From: an uncultured Opitutia bacterium
GTDB taxonomy: Bacteria > Verrucomicrobiota > Verrucomicrobiia > Opitutales > Opitutaceae
NCBI GenBank assembly: GCA_903877135.1
Contig: CAIRCN010000038.1
Span: 62,001-126,000, forward strand
DNA length: 64,000 nucleotides
Direction of reading: 5' to 3'
In this document: positions 9,599 through 27,390 of the stretch, piece after piece
Position numbering within the stretch: the stretch's first letter is position 1
Layout of the letters: every line of letters begins with the position of its first letter
Notes under the pieces: model-generated
Database searches by the model: none
The model's input: the letters and a program-made list of their open reading frames with translations, nothing else
What the model was told of the DNA's origin: nothing
Made by a program: the position numbers and the translations under genes

Positions 9599-10278
9599 GC
9601 GACTCCCTCGGCCAACTGCAGCGCCGCCTCGGCTACACGTTTCGCGATCCCACGCTGCTCGAGCGCGCCGTCACGCACACCTCGTTCACCGCGGATAATC
9701 CCAGCGCGGAAAACAACCAGCGGCTCGAGTTCCTCGGCGACGCCGTCCTCCAAATTCTCCTAGCCGAGACGCTGTTCCGGCTCTTCCCCGAGAAACGCGA
9801 GGGCCTGCTCAGCAAACGCCGCTCGCTGCTCGTCAACCAGAGGTTCCTCGCGGGCCTCACGAAGGAGATCGGCGCCGACCACTGCCTGCGCCTCGGCAAG
9901 GGCGAGACGAAGGGCGGCGGCCGCAGCCGCACCTCCATGCTCGGCGACGCGTTCGAGGCCATCGTCGGCGCGCTCTACCTCGACAGCGACCTCGCCACGA
10001 CCCGCGGCATCGTCATGGCCATTTACGGCGACCTCGGCGCGCGCCTCGGTGCCTCCGAGCCCGACGACAACCCCAAGGGGCGCCTGCAGGAACTCGTCCA
10101 ACCCGTCCACGGCAACACCGCGCTCCGCTACGACCTAGTTCGCAGCGAAGGCGAGGATCACGCCCGCGAATACGAGGTCGCCGTCTTCCTCCTTGACCGC
10201 CCGCTCGGCACCGGCCGCGGCACCTCCAAAAAACTCGCGGAAGAGGCCGCCGCTCGTGCGGCGCTGAGAAACTTGTAG
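9595..10278 (+). CDS. rnc: ribonuclease III
   Basis: Cytoplasmic double-strand RNA endonuclease of 227 residues, the normal length, acting in rRNA and mRNA processing. The RNase III signature NQRLEFLGDAVL is at about residues 41-52, with the second acidic site in MLGDAFEAIVGALYLD at about 115-130. A C-terminal dsRNA-binding domain begins near NPKGRLQELVQ (about 160) and ends in GTSKKLAEEAAARAAL. It overlaps the upstream permease gene by 4 bp and is followed 32 bp later by mfd. Confidence 0.97.
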   Translation: MSDSLGQLQRRLGYTFRDPTLLERAVTHTSFTADNPSAENNQRLEFLGDAVLQILLAETLFRLFPEKREGLLSKRRSLLVNQRFLAGLTKEIGADHCLRLGKGETKGGGRSRTSMLGDAFEAIVGALYLDSDLATTRGIVMAIYGDLGARLGASEPDDNPKGRLQELVQPVHGNTALRYDLVRSEGEDHAREYEVAVFLLDRPLGTGRGTSKKLAEEAAARAALRNL

Positions 10279-16153: not shown

Positions 16154-17152
16154 TCAGAGGGACTTCAGGTAGCTGAGGAGCTGATCGTCCGGACGATACT
16201 TTCCGGGCCGACTTTGGACCGGCTGAGTTTTAGCCAGCACGGCCTCTTTCAGTGCGAGGTTGGCGTCGAGGTAACTTTGCGTGGTGTCGAGCGACTCGTG
16301 ACCGAGCCAGATCGCAATCATCGCGCGATCGACACCAGCCTGGAGCAACTCCATCGCGGCGGTGTGCCGCAGGACGTGCGGCGTCACACGTTTTGATTTT
16401 AACGAGGGGCAGGGCGCTCTTGCGGCGCCCACGTGCTTCGCGACCAGGTGCTGGACCGCATCGGCGCTGAGGCGCCCGCCGCGACCGTTCGGGAAGACGT
16501 GCTGATCATCGTCGCCGCCGAGCTCCTGCAGCCAAGCTCGGAGCACTGCGATCACGGGTTTGGTGAGCGGAGTGCATCGCTCTTTTCGCCCTTTCCCCTC
16601 GCAGCGAACGTGAGCGCCGTGGTCGAGCGTCACGTCGCGGCGGCGCAGGCCGGTCATTTCCGAGAGACGAAGCCCGGTCTGGACCGCGAGCAACAGTATC
16701 GCGTAGTTTCGTCGCCCGAGCCGCGTGCTCTGGTCCACGCTGGCGAGGATCGCTACGACTTCCTCTTGAGTAAGATAGCCGACGAGGCGTCGTGCCACGC
16801 GTTTGTAGGGGATCGCCAGCACCCGTTGGATGAGCGCAGCGTGTTCCGGCACTTCGAGCGAGGCGTAATGATAAAACGACCGCAGCGCGGCCAGCCGGGC
16901 ATTCCGGCTGCGCGGGCCGTTCACTCGTTCGCTTTCCAGTTGGTCGAGGAAGGAGGCCAGGAACGGAGCATCGAGCTGGGCCAAGGCCAGTTTCGACGGC
17001 GGCGTTCCCAGCCGCTGTTGCGCATACTGCATGAGCAATCGGAACGTCTGTGCGTAGGCGGCGATGGTGTGCGGGCTCGCACGACGCTGCGCGATCAGGC
17101 GCTTCGCAAAAAACGACTGACAGAGCGGCGAGAAGGTGGGTTCGGGTTTCAT
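16154..17152 (-). CDS. tyrosine recombinase, third gene of trio (RitC-like)
   Basis: Integrase of 332 residues. An N-terminal SAM-like core-binding domain (about 10-100, CQSFFAKRLIAQRRASPHTIAAYA begins it) precedes the catalytic domain with TGLRLSEMTGL (Arg near 160), the basic GKGRKERCTPL strand, HVLRHTAAMELL (His/Arg near 257-260) and LGHESLDTTQSYLDAN (His near 283, nucleophile Tyr near 292). All catalytic positions are present. ATG at 17152 shares its first base with the stop of the preceding recombinase gene (TGATG), so it is translationally coupled. It is the last gene of the trio; the element end lies 60-90 bp downstream. Confidence 0.93.
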   Translation of the reverse strand: MKPEPTFSPLCQSFFAKRLIAQRRASPHTIAAYAQTFRLLMQYAQQRLGTPPSKLALAQLDAPFLASFLDQLESERVNGPRSRNARLAALRSFYHYASLEVPEHAALIQRVLAIPYKRVARRLVGYLTQEEVVAILASVDQSTRLGRRNYAILLLAVQTGLRLSEMTGLRRRDVTLDHGAHVRCEGKGRKERCTPLTKPVIAVLRAWLQELGGDDDQHVFPNGRGGRLSADAVQHLVAKHVGAARAPCPSLKSKRVTPHVLRHTAAMELLQAGVDRAMIAIWLGHESLDTTQSYLDANLALKEAVLAKTQPVQSRPGKYRPDDQLLSYLKSL

Positions 17153-18090
17153 CAGGCGACTCCTTTCCAGCGGGCCTCGAGGAGATTGCCAGCCGCAGCC
17201 ATCAGCTCCGGGGTGTTGGTCAGATACCAATAGGTCCCCGTCACGTTGCTGTGACCGAGATAGGTCGAGAGGATCGGCATTCGCCGCGTCACCTCATCAC
17301 CAGCGCGATACCAGCGCAGCAACGTCTCCACGGCGAACCGGTGGCGGAAGTCATGCAGTCGAGGCCCCGGCCCGCCGCCGTGTTTGCGCAATCCGATCTG
17401 CCGCGACAGGTCGCGGAAGACCATGTTCACGCCACTATTGTTGAGACGCGTGCCGTGGATCGTCGCGAAGAAGAAGACCACCGGCCGCCGGCGTCGCGCG
17501 TAGGTTTCATCGCGCAGCCGGCCATACTCACGAAGCACCGCGCACGTCGATGGGTGCAGCGTCACGAGCCGGTTTTTATCAAACTTCGTTCGCCGGACTG
17601 TGAGCAGCCCTTGTGCAAGGTCCACGTCCTGCGGTTGGAGATTCAGCGCTTCACCGAGCCGCATCCCGGTCACCGCGAGCAAACCGAAGAGACAGTAATA
17701 AGTGCGCTGTCGCAGCGGATGCGGCGACACCATCGTCAGGGCCGCACTCAGCAATCGGTCGATCTCATCTTCGGAGTAAAGATAAGGCCGGGCTCGTTTG
17801 GAGCGGAACGGCAACAAACGTAGGTGCGGCACCTCCGTCGCTGGATCGGCCGCGCTACGATATTCGGCGAAGCCGCGGATGATTGTCAGACGCCGTGCCC
17901 AGGAGACTGGTTTTTCGTAAGCGCGGCTCGCAGCATATTCTACCGCGAGGGCGCTGGTGACGTGCTCGGCACCTCGCTTGCCGAGGAACGACACCAGTTC
18001 GTGCAAGCACACGCCATATTCGCGGAGCTTGAACCCGAGGCTGCGCCGCAACGCGAGGTAGTCCTCGACGGCTTGAGTGAGCGGCGTCAT
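17152..18090 (-). CDS. tyrosine recombinase, second gene of trio (RitB-like)
   Basis: Integrase of 312 residues. The N-terminal core-binding domain opens with LTQAVEDYLALRRSLGFKLR. Catalytic motifs are VTGMRLGEALNL (Arg near 143), TKFDKNRLVTL (basic strand), LHDFRHRFAVETLL (His/Arg near 246-249) and YLGHSNVTGTYWYLTNTPEL (His near 276, Tyr near 284). The ATG at 18090 overlaps the stop of the upstream recombinase (ATGA); the frame stays open further upstream but only over the upstream gene. The protein differs clearly from its two neighbours, as expected for the distinct A, B and C recombinases of RIT elements. Confidence 0.93.
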   Translation of the reverse strand: MTPLTQAVEDYLALRRSLGFKLREYGVCLHELVSFLGKRGAEHVTSALAVEYAASRAYEKPVSWARRLTIIRGFAEYRSAADPATEVPHLRLLPFRSKRARPYLYSEDEIDRLLSAALTMVSPHPLRQRTYYCLFGLLAVTGMRLGEALNLQPQDVDLAQGLLTVRRTKFDKNRLVTLHPSTCAVLREYGRLRDETYARRRRPVVFFFATIHGTRLNNSGVNMVFRDLSRQIGLRKHGGGPGPRLHDFRHRFAVETLLRWYRAGDEVTRRMPILSTYLGHSNVTGTYWYLTNTPELMAAAGNLLEARWKGVA

Positions 18091-19313
18091 TGCGCACCTC
18101 CCGGCCACGCGACCGCAAGCGAGCGCAGCGCAGTCAGATCGACTTTCGCGTAGATGGCCGTCGTGTCGGGGCTGCGGTGCCGGAGGATTTCGCCGATCTC
18201 GTCGAGCGACGCACCGTGCTGCAGCATGTCGGTCGCGAGACTGTGTCGGAGCAGGTGCGCACCTTTCCGCGCGGAGTTCACGCCTGCTGTTTTCAGCGCG
18301 GTCTGCACGATCTTTGCGATCGAGTTGGCCTTCGCGAGCCCTGCTAATGGAGCGTAATCTCTGATGAAGACGGCGCGACACCCACATTGAGGACGATCCC
18401 GCCGGATATACTTCGCCATGGCTCGCGCCACGTCGGCCGGCAACGGGAGCTGCGCCGAGCGGCCCGCTTTGCCATGCACCGTCATTCGAGCGTGCTCCCA
18501 ATCGATGTCGTCGAGCGTGAGCCGGATGACTTCGCCCGCCCGCAGACCAAGGCGCGCGAGCAGCAACAGGATCGCGTAGTTGCGCCGTCCCATGGCTGTT
18601 CTTCGATCGCAGGCGTCGAGCACGCGTTTCACATCGCGGGCCGGCAGATGCTTGGGCAGCGTGGAGAGTGACCACCGCGCCACTCTCGGGACCACCTTCG
18701 CGAGGTCCTGATCGTGGAGTCCCTTGTAATGTAGATAGCGAAGGAACGAGCGCATCGAGGCCACCAGCTTCCGGGCGTAAGAGGAACCGTGTTTGCGCGC
18801 GTGACGTTGGACGAACGTGGTGATGTCTGACGGCCTCAACGCCGACAGTTCAATCGCTCCATCCCCAAACTTCGCCAAGAGGAGTGGCTCGACGTATCGA
18901 ATCCAGCTTACGGCCGTCGCCGGCGAGAGCGCGCGTTCGTCAACGAGGAAGCGGCGGTATTTTGCCACCGCCTCCTCCGCTGCGGTTGGGGCCGCGCGCA
19001 CGGCTGCCGGAGTGACCCCGCTCTGCCGCAGCATTGCAATGAGCCGACGCATCGTCGCTGGCGCACTCACATGCACCCACTGTGCTCGCACGTGCGGCTC
19101 TAAAAATTCCTCCACCAGCGCTTCGTCGATTTGGTCGAGAGTGCGATGGCGCCGGGCGAGCCACGCATCAAAATATTCCAGCAGGCTCAAGTGATAGCGC
19201 TGTGAGTCCCGGACGTAGCCTTGGACACAGATCAGCGCCATGTATTGGGGAATGAAACGAGACAGCGGACCACTTGGTCCGGCCTCGGTTGGTGGTATTG
19301 GTTTCGGATCCAT
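18087..19313 (-). CDS. tyrosine recombinase, first gene of trio (RitA-like)
   Basis: Integrase of 408 residues, the longest of the three, with an extended N-terminal DNA-binding part (about 1-200) that includes SWIRYVEPLLLAKFG and SYARKLVASMRSFLRYLHYK. Catalytic motifs are LGLRAGEVIRLTLDDI (Arg near 257), HGKAGRSAQLPL (basic strand), HLLRHSLATDML (His/Arg near 350-353) and LRHRSPDTTAIYAKVD (nucleophile Tyr near 387). It is the promoter-proximal gene on the minus strand, starting about 90-110 bp inside the right-hand repeats, so any promoter lies between 19314 and 19450. Confidence 0.93.
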   Translation of the reverse strand: MDPKPIPPTEAGPSGPLSRFIPQYMALICVQGYVRDSQRYHLSLLEYFDAWLARRHRTLDQIDEALVEEFLEPHVRAQWVHVSAPATMRRLIAMLRQSGVTPAAVRAAPTAAEEAVAKYRRFLVDERALSPATAVSWIRYVEPLLLAKFGDGAIELSALRPSDITTFVQRHARKHGSSYARKLVASMRSFLRYLHYKGLHDQDLAKVVPRVARWSLSTLPKHLPARDVKRVLDACDRRTAMGRRNYAILLLLARLGLRAGEVIRLTLDDIDWEHARMTVHGKAGRSAQLPLPADVARAMAKYIRRDRPQCGCRAVFIRDYAPLAGLAKANSIAKIVQTALKTAGVNSARKGAHLLRHSLATDMLQHGASLDEIGEILRHRSPDTTAIYAKVDLTALRSLAVAWPGGAQ

Positions 19314-20874: not shown

Positions 20875-22017
20875 ATGCACCACACGCTCCGCTCCTCCCT
20901 GCCGCTCGCCGCCGCCGCCCTCCTCGCCCTCCTCTCCGCCAGCTGCAGCAAAACCCCCTCCAGCACCATCCGCATCGGCGAATACGCCTCGCTCACCGGC
21001 AAGGAGGCCGCCTACGGAGAGACTTCGCACAAGGGCATCCTCCTCGCCGTCGAGGAACTCAACGCCCGCGGCGGCGTCCTCGGCCGCCCGCTCGAACTGC
21101 TGACCGAGGATAACCAGTCCAAGCAGGGCGAATCCGCCACCGTCGTGAAGAAACTCATCACCCGCGACCAAGCAGTCGCCCTTCTCGGCGAAGTGGCGTC
21201 CATCCGCTCGCTCGAGGCCGCGCCCGTCGCCCAGCATTACGGCATCCCCATGGTCTCTTCCGCCTCGGTCAACACCAAGGTCACCGAGGTCGGCGACTGC
21301 ATCTTCCGCGTCTGCTTCGTCGACTCCTTCCAAGGCCGTGTGCTCGCCAAATTCGCCCTCGACCACCTCCACGCCCGCCGCGTCGCCATCGTCACTTCCG
21401 TCTCCAACGCCTACAGCGTCGGCATGACGCGCATCTTCACCGAAAACTTCACCGCTGGCGGCGGCACCATCGTCGCCGACCAGAAATACAGCGAAGGCGA
21501 CAAGGATTTCCGCGCCCAGCTCACCGCCATCAAGGCCGCCTCGCCCGACGCCATCATCGCCACCGGCTACTACACCGAGGCCGCGCTCCTCTGCAAACAG
21601 GCCCGCTCCCTCGGCCTCACGCTCCCCATCTTCGGCGGCGACGGTTGGGACGCCCCCGCGCTCATCGAAATCGGCGGCGACGCCGTCGAGGGAACCTACT
21701 TCAGCACCCATTACTCGCCCGACAACCCCAGCGCCGAAGTCCAGCAATTCAACCAGCGCTACCGCGCCCGCTGGGGCGCCGTGCCCGACGCCTGGGCCGC
21801 CCTCGGCTACGACTCCGCGCTCGTCCTCGCCGATGCCCTCGCCCGCGCCGGCACCACCGAGCCGCACGCCCTCCGCGCCGCCCTCGTCGCCACGAAGAAT
21901 TTCCCCGCCGTCACCGGCCGCATCACCATCGACGCCCAGCGCAACGCCTCGAAATCCGCCGTCATCCTCACCGTCAAAAACGGTAAATACCAGTTCGTCA
22001 CGAGCGTGGCGCCATGA
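20875..22017 (+). CDS. livK: branched-chain amino acid type ABC transporter substrate-binding lipoprotein
   Basis: Periplasmic lipoprotein of 380 residues. The N-terminus MHHTLRSSLPLAAAALLALL ends in a lipobox LSASC, with Cys near residue 23 and Ser at +2, compatible with outer-membrane sorting. The mature part is a LivJ/LivK-type binding protein: IRIGEYASLTGKEAAYGE, ELLTEDNQSKQGES, and GGDGWDAPALIEIG. It heads a livKHMGF operon, so the substrate is probably a branched-chain amino acid or related amide/amino compound; the binding protein alone does not fix this. The operon is interrupted directly after it by the four-helix-bundle cassette. Confidence 0.9.
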   Translation: MHHTLRSSLPLAAAALLALLSASCSKTPSSTIRIGEYASLTGKEAAYGETSHKGILLAVEELNARGGVLGRPLELLTEDNQSKQGESATVVKKLITRDQAVALLGEVASIRSLEAAPVAQHYGIPMVSSASVNTKVTEVGDCIFRVCFVDSFQGRVLAKFALDHLHARRVAIVTSVSNAYSVGMTRIFTENFTAGGGTIVADQKYSEGDKDFRAQLTAIKAASPDAIIATGYYTEAALLCKQARSLGLTLPIFGGDGWDAPALIEIGGDAVEGTYFSTHYSPDNPSAEVQQFNQRYRARWGAVPDAWAALGYDSALVLADALARAGTTEPHALRAALVATKNFPAVTGRITIDAQRNASKSAVILTVKNGKYQFVTSVAP

Positions 22018-22043
22018 GTCCCGCGGCCGCCCCGGGCTGTTAT

Positions 22044-22070
22044 AAGTTGAAGGTTGAGTGTTGAAAGACG
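22044..22070 (+). repeat. left heptad-based inverted repeat flanking four-helix-bundle gene
   Basis: 27 bp made of GTTGAAG-type heptads (GTTGAAG, GTTGAGT, GTTGAAA). Its reverse complement matches 22458-22484 in 25 of 27 positions. It starts 27 bp after the livK stop and overlaps the beginning of the small gene. Confidence 0.85.
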
Positions 22071-22453
22071 CCGGGAAATTCTCTCATCCGATGTTCAACT
22101 TCGAGAAACTGGACGCCTGGCAGAAGTCGATTGCCCTCGCGGATCTGGTTTACCAGGCAACCCGCGCCTTCCCGGCCGAGGAGCGCTTCGGCTTGACCAA
22201 CCAAATCCGTCGGGCCGCCGTGTCGGTCTCATCCAATCTCGCTGAAGGTTGCCCCCGTTCCTCGCAGCAAGATTTCGCCCGTTTCGTGGAGATTGCCACT
22301 GGCTCAGCCTTCGAAGTCGCCTCGCAGGCGGTCATCGCCCACCATCAAGGCTACCTCCCAGAATCCGAGTTCGACGCGATCCAAGCTTTGGCCCTGGAAA
22401 TCACCCGCATGCTCAGCGGCCTGCGCCAAACGCTCCTCCGCGCCACTCGCTGA
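22058..22453 (+). CDS. four-helix bundle protein (23S rRNA IVS/S23 type)
   Basis: Small protein of 131 residues, possibly 120 if the ATG at 22091 (MFNFEKLDAWQKSI) is used. The family pattern is clear: FEKLDAWQKSIALADLVY, the LTNQIRRAAVSVSSNLAEG block and the DFARFVEIATGSAFEVASQ helix. Proteins of this family were first noted in intervening sequences of 23S rRNA and have no settled function; the related Avd protein accompanies diversity-generating retroelements, of which none is seen here. The gene sits between livK and livH, bounded by inverted repeats, and looks like an inserted cassette. The upstream start at 22058 lies inside the left repeat. Confidence 0.88.
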   Translation: MLKDAGKFSHPMFNFEKLDAWQKSIALADLVYQATRAFPAEERFGLTNQIRRAAVSVSSNLAEGCPRSSQQDFARFVEIATGSAFEVASQAVIAHHQGYLPESEFDAIQALALEITRMLSGLRQTLLRATR

Positions 22454-22457
22454 CCTC

Positions 22458-22484
22458 CGTCTTTCAACTTTCAACCTTCAACTT
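22458..22484 (-). repeat. right heptad-based inverted repeat flanking four-helix-bundle gene
   Basis: Begins CGTCTTTCAAC and consists of TTTCAAC-type heptads; the series continues to 22490. It is the 25/27 reverse complement of 22044-22070. Together the two arms could fold the transcript of the small gene into one long stem-loop within the liv mRNA. Confidence 0.85.
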
Positions 22485-22499
22485 TCAACTCTCCCTCCC

Positions 22500-23390
22500 C
22501 TGACCGAATTCCTCCAACAGCTCCTCAACGGCCTTTCGCTTGGAGCCATCTATGCGCTCATCGCGCTCGGCTACACGATGGTTTACGGCGTGCTGCGGTT
22601 CATCAACTTTGTGCATGGCGACGTCTTTATGGTCGGTGCCTACGTCGGCTACTACGTCGGCCGGCTCGTGCCGCATCACAGCCTCTGGGGCGGCCTCGCC
22701 GTGCTGGCCGCCGCCATGATAGTCTGCGCCGCACTCGGCATGCTCATCGAACGGCTGGCCTATCGGCGGCTCCGCAGTTCACCCACGCTCAACGTCCTCA
22801 TCACCGCCATCGGCGTCTCGTTGCTCCTCGAAAACCTGAGCCAATACCTCTGCGGAGCCACCCCCCGTTCGTTCCCCGAACTGTTCCCCGTCGCCACCTA
22901 TCACGTCGGTGGCGTCTTCGTCTCCAGCAACCAGCTCGTTGTGATCGGCGTGACGCTGCTCCTCCTCTTCGCGCTCCGTTACATCGTGCTCCGCACGAAA
23001 CTCGGCACCGCCATGCGCGCCCTCTCGCTCAATCCACAGGCCGCCGCGCTCGTCGGCATCGACATCAACTTCGTCATTTCCTTCACCTTCGCCCTCGGCT
23101 CGGCACTCGCCGCCGCCGGCGGCATCCTCTACGCGCTCAACTACCCCTCGATCGACCCGCTGATGGGCGTCATGCCCGGCCTCAAGGCCTTTGTCGCCGC
23201 CATCCTCGGCGGCATCGGCAACATCCCGGGAGCCGCGCTCGGCGGCCTCCTCCTCGGCACCGTGGAAACTTTTGTCGGCGGTAGCCAGTGGTCGACCTAC
23301 AAGGACGCCATCGCCTTCGCGATCCTGATTATCATCCTGCTGTTCCGCCCCGCGGGCCTGCTGGGCAGATTCACCGTCGAGAAAGTCTGA
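22500..23390 (+). CDS. livH: branched-chain amino acid type ABC transporter permease LivH
   Basis: Inner-membrane permease of about 296 residues with the LivH pattern LNGLSLGAIYALIALGYT and MVYGVLRFINFVHGD, then AVIGVSLLLEN-like and the late GLKAFVAAILGGIGNIPGA. The start is unusual: the conserved N-terminus (xTEFLQQLLNG) is preceded by CTG at 22500 and there is no ATG, GTG or TTG in frame near it. The frame stays open back into the four-helix-bundle gene to 22293, but those residues are out-of-frame sequence of that gene. CTG initiation or loss of the original ATG on cassette insertion is inferred. livM follows 3 bp later. Confidence 0.85.
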   Translation: MTEFLQQLLNGLSLGAIYALIALGYTMVYGVLRFINFVHGDVFMVGAYVGYYVGRLVPHHSLWGGLAVLAAAMIVCAALGMLIERLAYRRLRSSPTLNVLITAIGVSLLLENLSQYLCGATPRSFPELFPVATYHVGGVFVSSNQLVVIGVTLLLLFALRYIVLRTKLGTAMRALSLNPQAAALVGIDINFVISFTFALGSALAAAGGILYALNYPSIDPLMGVMPGLKAFVAAILGGIGNIPGAALGGLLLGTVETFVGGSQWSTYKDAIAFAILIIILLFRPAGLLGRFTVEKV

Positions 23391-27313: not shown

Positions 27314-27390
27314 CCAAAAGTCAGCTAAACTGGTTGGCTCCCTTATTTTCCACTCGTTACTTTTCACTCTTCACCCGTCACTCTTCTAAC

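Follow-up and report, generated by a model that had tools for sequence, protein, structure and literature searches.

The four-helix-bundle gene between livK and livH is likely a member of a group of small mobile cassettes, whose ends would be read by their own protein and cut and joined by an enzyme acting in trans. Comparisons of related loci showed that the gene and the 7-nt repeats (heptads) beside it form a unit which is present or absent at exact junctions and which has gene-less relatives. In such a cassette, a PF05635 gene is flanked on either side by an array of about four and a half heptads, the two arrays usually being in inverted orientation. The window referred to throughout is the whole stretch of 64,000 nucleotides that was analysed.

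The cassette between livK and livH

The original prediction described a gene of the S23/IVS family between livK and livH which is bounded by 27-bp inverted repeats built of 7-bp units, and the present analysis agrees with it on each of these points [Table 1]. The encoded protein, P0001, matches PF05635 (23S rRNA intervening-sequence protein) at E 1e-36 and TIGR02436 ('four helix bundle protein') at E 4e-35, and the closest solved structure is 2gsc (XCC0516, five chains in the entry; E 3e-24). On re-counting, the core arms (22044-22070 against 22458-22484) match at 25 of 27 positions and the extended arms (22039-22070 against 22458-22489) at 28 of 32. The 160-nt flanks of the gene have an inverted-repeat score of 22.0, and the score is at most 13.0 at the 1468 other positions of the same geometry in the window. 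Period-7 arrays are present in the arms, though degenerate (GTTGARR); the right array (22461-22493), a tandem 7-nt unit of period 7 in 4.3 copies, has the top period-7 score of the window (19.4; runner-up, 10.4). The cassette has no transposase of its own, as had been claimed, the PF05635 gene being the only one inside, and rnc is indeed present in the window at about 9616-10272. PADLOC assigned no family to the cassette, and a tblastn search of P0001 against phage records gave no match at E 1e-5. Past the far side of livK, two overlapping ORFs on the minus strand (17152-19313) resemble tyrosine recombinases.

Table 1. Parts of the cassette and its host genes, with positions in the window.
Feature	Position	Strand	Evidence or remark
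Left arm, degenerate GTTGARR heptad array	22039-22070	+	Purine-rich on +; repeat search, arm alignment
Four-helix-bundle gene P0001, 120 aa	22091-22453	+	PF05635 / TIGR02436
Right arm, same heptads inverted (CTTTCAAC on +)	22458-22493	-	Highest period-7 score in the window
livK (substrate-binding protein), host gene upstream of the insertion junction	20875-22017	+	PF13458, E 4e-68
livH (permease), host gene downstream of the insertion junction	about 22500-23390	+	PF02653, E 3e-46

The genome to which the window belongs has one PF05635 match. In a search of the genome for further heptads, as the original prediction had proposed, the heptad pattern, at up to three mismatches, was found at 32 places as against 20 for the reversed pattern, so weak single arrays in this genome mean little. 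Direct reading of two of the 32 showed short hairpins built of these heptads and lacking the gene. A second, distinct period-7 array of the window (TCACTCT-like, 27352-27386) has no PF05635 gene and lies just 5' of an ATG near 27390, where an ORF starts whose beginning resembles HtpG. A U32-protease-like gene on contig C14 of the genome (L225, 1713-4394) contains in-frame, heptad-coded STFN-like peptides at five places. At its residue 177 a ten-residue stretch is absent in all six aligned relatives. The other places are in loops that differ from relative to relative, and two relatives show their own heptad-like peptides at residue 582.

Paired heptad arrays among relatives

Loci were taken from relatives and from named genome contigs (the best 80 of 82), and a profile seeded with 18 collected proteins gave 206 hits at 191 loci, from which 160 non-redundant genes were kept after partial, redundant, and short-flanked ones had been dropped. 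For 113 of the 160 genes, the inverted match between the two flanks exceeds the 99th percentile of shuffled sequence, compared with 48 of 478 flanks mispaired across loci; the other 47 genes fail this inverted-repeat test. By a second scoring, with the threshold at an inverted-repeat score of 13, 112 of the 160 genes reach it. The flanks are also periodic, with an autocorrelation of 0.377 upstream and 0.367 downstream at lag 7 (control DNA, 0.256), 0.350 and 0.338 at lag 14 (0.263), and 0.333 and 0.332 at lag 21, where the control is itself high (0.305) because codons contribute. Period-7 arrays that beat the null lie upstream of 115 of the 160 genes, downstream of 94, and on both sides of 85. 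The two arms of these 85 have a heptad in common, with at most one mismatch, in 59 cases (random pairing, 247 of 2000), and their words are three or more mismatches apart in eight. The arms of some genes (e.g., L102, L117, and L247) are direct rather than inverted. The median arm is 31 nt long, i.e., about four and a half heptads, with 108 of 208 arms measuring 28-35 nt, and four or five of the seven columns are invariant in 112 of 171 longer arrays.

A later set of 30 loci, the best hits of a phylum search, yielded 29 scorable genes from 29 loci, 20 of which reach the score of 13, compared with one of 29 when the best of 20 shuffles was taken for each; two of the 29, from the same genus, have identical arrays. 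Within the window's phylum the family is widespread, since 220 of 288 sampled genomes match PF05635 at E 0.001 and 199 lie above the family cut-off. Two loci (L132 and L143) are titled as a Klebsiella pneumoniae MAG and yet group with Verrucomicrobia in the PF05635 tree, and the label looks wrong.

The livK-livH junction across relatives

Twenty livK-livH junctions were inspected from 24 loci, our own included. Eight carry heptads with a PF05635 gene, six are short (19-57 nt), and the other six have other sequence or a poorly called livK end. Short empty junctions therefore do exist in the liv operons of relatives, where the original prediction proposed that empty sites be sought; the same-genus genome G001 has one of 57 nt without a PF05635 match. 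The words at the eight filled junctions are GTTGARR in six, GAGAGCY in G026, and GAGAGTC in G030; the PF05635 profile match of G026 stops at position 67 of 106. The genus of G004, tried for close pairs, offered two genomes only, and the new loci were left out.

In the protein tree, 18 of the 160 rows sit at livK-livH, and the label needs seven changes, of which at least three are forced by well-supported branches. Trees with a single change, i.e., one origin, numbered 0 among 200 bootstrap trees, a bootstrap that has few columns and is not settled. Because of the forced changes and the lack of one-origin trees, the cassette probably inserted at this junction on more than one occasion. Two observations that the original prediction had named as telling against it were each found in part, as gene-less heptads occur in the genome and the junction is occupied in relatives, with another heptad type in two of eight. 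We read both as signs of a mobile family and not as a refutation.

Filled and empty sites on plasmids and in 23S rRNA

A group of Nostoc-type plasmids, 97-98% identical at site 1 and 91-96% at most others, have the cassette, a gene-less hairpin, or nothing at one junction of one operon and at three of another. Site 1, read in five of the ten records that cover it, is filled in L250 (plasmid C of Trichormus variabilis ATCC 29413) and L274, empty in L275 and L276, and occupied by a remnant in L277, with an exact target duplication (GTAAT). Site 2 is filled in L278, L280, and L282 with GGAGTCA words, has a 3-nt gap in L248, L279, L281, L283, and L284, and has other sequence in L285; its duplication (TTCTA) is imperfect. 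Site 3 is filled in L248 only, with the word GGGAAAA, the gaps in the other eight being 4 nt or less, and site 4 has gene-less hairpins in L278 and L279. For two further sites (L286 and L287), empty counterparts were found and no duplication could be read. Reading by eye at sites 1-6 and the 23S site (below) gave an exact target duplication at site 1 only and none that was clear at sites 3, 5, 6, and 23S. For the flanks of L246, no second plasmid was found. The cassette of L282 (962-1526, Nostoc plasmid pNPM1) has a gene that is seemingly split by a further heptad-bounded sequence, which would be a nested insertion. The hairpins of L278 (370-614) and L279 (370-661) occupy one and the same position and differ in what they enclose, as though the arrays were exchange points.

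The window's cassette lacks an rRNA context, and a relative of the same build does sit in 23S rRNA. The 23S gene on plasmid AZO_p2 of Azospirillum lipoferum 4B has a cassette with inverted AGAGGAC/GGATGAC arrays, a 473-nt insert in place of a 19-nt hairpin tip, and the 23S copies read on AZO_p3 and AZO_p1 are empty. The claim that the livK-livH unit is of the same kind as the 23S rRNA intervening sequences is upheld by this heptad-bounded PF05635 gene and by the heptamers described in the consulted part of PMC4990558. PF05635 genes were also found between cas6 and cas4 in the type I-D operons of two cyanobacterial plasmids (L247 and L249) with heptad arrays adjoining, the arrays being inverted in L249 and the downstream one direct in L247; these cassettes may account for reports of PF05635 in cas loci. 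The intervening sequences of rRNA, the cassettes in mRNA operons, and the heptad hairpins that lack a gene thus appear to belong to a single family of elements.

Heptad words and the encoded protein

The heptad word differs between loci, with 38 clusters among 114 upstream heptads, i.e., the copies do not have one common terminal inverted repeat. Heptad similarity rises with protein identity across 102 elements (correlation, 0.53; null maximum, 0.19 in 500). When pairs with homologous neighbours were excluded (5023 of 5151 kept) the correlation was 0.50 (null maximum, 0.18 in 300), the neighbours being taken as the longest ORF, so that some same-site pairs may persist among the different-site pairs. 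Above 50% protein identity, word similarity is 0.63-0.66 for different-site and 0.68-0.75 for same-site pairs, and below 50% both lie at 0.43-0.50; words at the same site are thus somewhat more alike at equal protein identity, which indicates that a shared site adds a little. With the 46 elements of the GTTGA type removed, the 56 that remain still give a correlation of 0.24 (p 0.001).

Arrays were found in 10 of 11 cyanobacterial plasmid elements, the automatically called one of L250 being doubtful. The similarity of their words to the words of the three closest proteins in the main set is 0.606, compared with 0.518 when dealt at random (1/400), and clear agreement is missing in four of the ten (L245, L246, L248, and L251). 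The clearest case across phyla is GGAGTCA, common to the Nostoc-group plasmids and to proteins of 67-72% identity encoded in genomes of the window's own taxonomic family. In these comparisons, the heptad word tracks the protein where sites differ and, less strongly, where phyla differ. Locus-specific heptads that follow the protein point to an encoded protein that recognises the ends, although gene and ends might also co-vary through joint travel without any binding.

We infer that, most likely, the encoded protein binds the heptad array and so marks both ends. The structure entries of its solved relatives, 2gsc and 2rld, contain five chains each. Perhaps one heptad unit is taken by each subunit of a pentameric protein, in which case, as a guess, a 31-nt array would present a 3-nt core five times at intervals of 7 nt, once for every subunit. 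Cutting and joining would fall to an enzyme acting in trans, as the cassette contains no gene other than PF05635, and the gene-less heptad hairpins would be non-autonomous derivatives. A broader proposal, which we make tentatively and which may well prove wrong, is that these are transposase-less mobile elements with a heptad code that a small ring protein would read, with about five units per ring and a word of its own for each protein lineage. Under such a code, the word of a protein would mark both ends of its cassette and of its gene-less derivatives.

Transcript folding, retro-copying, and other explanations

The heptads could instead belong to an RNA-level element whose stem is retained for the processing of mRNA or rRNA (excision by RNase III) or for autoregulation, the symmetry serving the stem; we regard this as unlikely. 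Situated between livK and livH, the cassette would let the mRNA fold around the gene, as the original prediction proposed, and the arms do pair in the predicted RNA (z -2.1). Excision of an rRNA intervening sequence by RNase III is reported in the part of PMC4990558 consulted. The orientation of the genes is biased as well, for relative to the longest flanking ORFs of at least 100 codons, 75 of 152 are sense to both, 15 antisense to both, and 62 mixed; the genes of L245 and L246 are annotated antisense to both neighbours. This sense bias suits an RNA step, or merely selection against antisense inserts. The mismatches in the arms speak against the stem: transitions that preserve G.U pairing number 132 for the sense transcript and 124 for the antisense transcript (p 0.66), beside 334 transversions, and hence no selection on an RNA stem is seen. 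Conservation of a stem alone would also leave the empty sites and the agreement of heptads and proteins between sites unexplained. Of the alternatives in the earlier phrase 'mobile or RNA-processed cassette', mobility is thus backed by the filled and empty sites, and RNA processing finds no support in the arm mismatches; cleavage of an RNA stem in the livK-livH mRNA is possible, given the predicted fold.

Improbable to a similar degree is a retro-element, in which the cassette RNA would be copied back by a reverse transcriptase in trans and PF05635 would act like Avd of the diversity-generating retroelements. The sense bias agrees with it, P0001 matches the bAvd-like family PF22296 (E 1e-5; 26.3 bits, below the cut-off of 40), and homology of PF05635 and Avd is noted in the accessible text of PMC10053308. 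In a search of the genome itself, there is one RVT_1 match, on contig C42 (the window being on C38), and this sole match is not beside the cassette; moreover, the ends are symmetric, like DNA ends.

A passenger of the MITE kind, with the heptads as the ends of an ordinary transposon, an unlinked transposase moving it, and the gene as mere cargo, is harder still to credit. Gene-less hairpins exist and one site has the 5-bp duplication GTAAT, as such an element would have it, but a single transposase could hardly tolerate the 38 clusters of end words, and the words track the PF05635 protein. A profile search of the genome for Y1 transposases, the only transposase family covered, gave one match, on contig C6. 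Polymerase slippage beside an ordinary host gene, hypothesised for the heptamer repeats that are over-represented in bacteria (PMC4692102, consulted in part), would explain neither a matching inverted array across a gene nor the co-variation nor the clean empty sites, and can practically be set aside.

Relation to known systems and implications

A mobile cassette with protein-read ends, the reading that we prefer, brings together features which have been described apart. TRAP-type ring proteins bind regularly spaced RNA triplets. The likeness to the present case, a ring of identical subunits on a regularly spaced repeat, is an analogy of working, with binding here putative and no homology claimed. 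The 23S rRNA intervening sequences resemble the window's cassette in the PF05635/S23p family, in complementary ends, and in heptad arrays at the ends, as in the Azospirillum copy; the cassette differs in its place within a protein operon and not in rRNA. According to the sections consulted, PMC4990558 describes for one species a 23S intervening sequence that has terminal repeats of 28 bp and, before S23p, three heptamers in tandem (GACAGAT), and that RNase III excises; S23p of Xanthomonas is described there as a homopentameric ring. The same partial sources place PF05635 in rRNA inserts of CPR bacteria (PMC11270868), call the function of S23p/PF05635 unknown (PMC4990558 and PMC11270868), and count 18 PF05635 genes in cas loci (PMC3936711). 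The accounts of 23S intervening sequences, to the extent covered, mention neither co-variation of heptads and proteins nor gene-less derivatives. The resemblance of PF05635 to Avd stated in the excerpt of PMC10053308 is matched here by a related family and a weak profile match, and is set off by the sub-cut-off score and the location of the one RVT_1 match on another contig. MITEs and insertion sequences share terminal inverted repeats, filled and empty sites, and gene-less copies with our cassettes, whereas the cassettes have no common end sequence, no transposase, and an exact target duplication at one site only.

The cyanobacterial STRR sequences are tandem heptamer repeats. Like the arrays reported as TAACTGA (PMC4679880) and GGGNATC (PMC4692102, with GGGAATC in Xanthomonas, the source of XCC0516), they are short arrays of 7-nt units, mostly intergenic, in cyanobacteria and Bacteroidetes among others. 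In their consulted portions, these reports treat the arrays alone, whereas here the arrays form a pair around a gene; the phrase 'four helix' is absent from PMC4679880, and PMC4692102 (2015) states that the repeats are generally not found with mobile elements, that detailed literature on bacterial heptameric repeats is lacking, and that slippage is a hypothesis. A literature search for Avd pentamers gave unrelated papers among the 10 of 137 matches listed, and in the lists of the literature searches as a whole we found no paper uniting PF05635 genes and inverted heptad arrays in protein operons, a weak negative since subscription literature lay mostly outside the search. Intervening sequences with PF05635, heptamer arrays, PF05635 in cas loci, and the likeness to Avd are therefore known, and what is perhaps new is to join them as one element.

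If the gene and the heptads are one element, the question of what S23p does and the question of the heptamer repeats would merge into which protein binds which word. A heptad code, if true, would account together for the rRNA intervening sequences, the presence of PF05635 in cas operons, and the tandem heptamer repeats found in cyanobacteria and other bacteria. In essence, the family is common and supplies natural filled and empty sites together with dozens of protein-word pairs on which binding and mobility can be tested.
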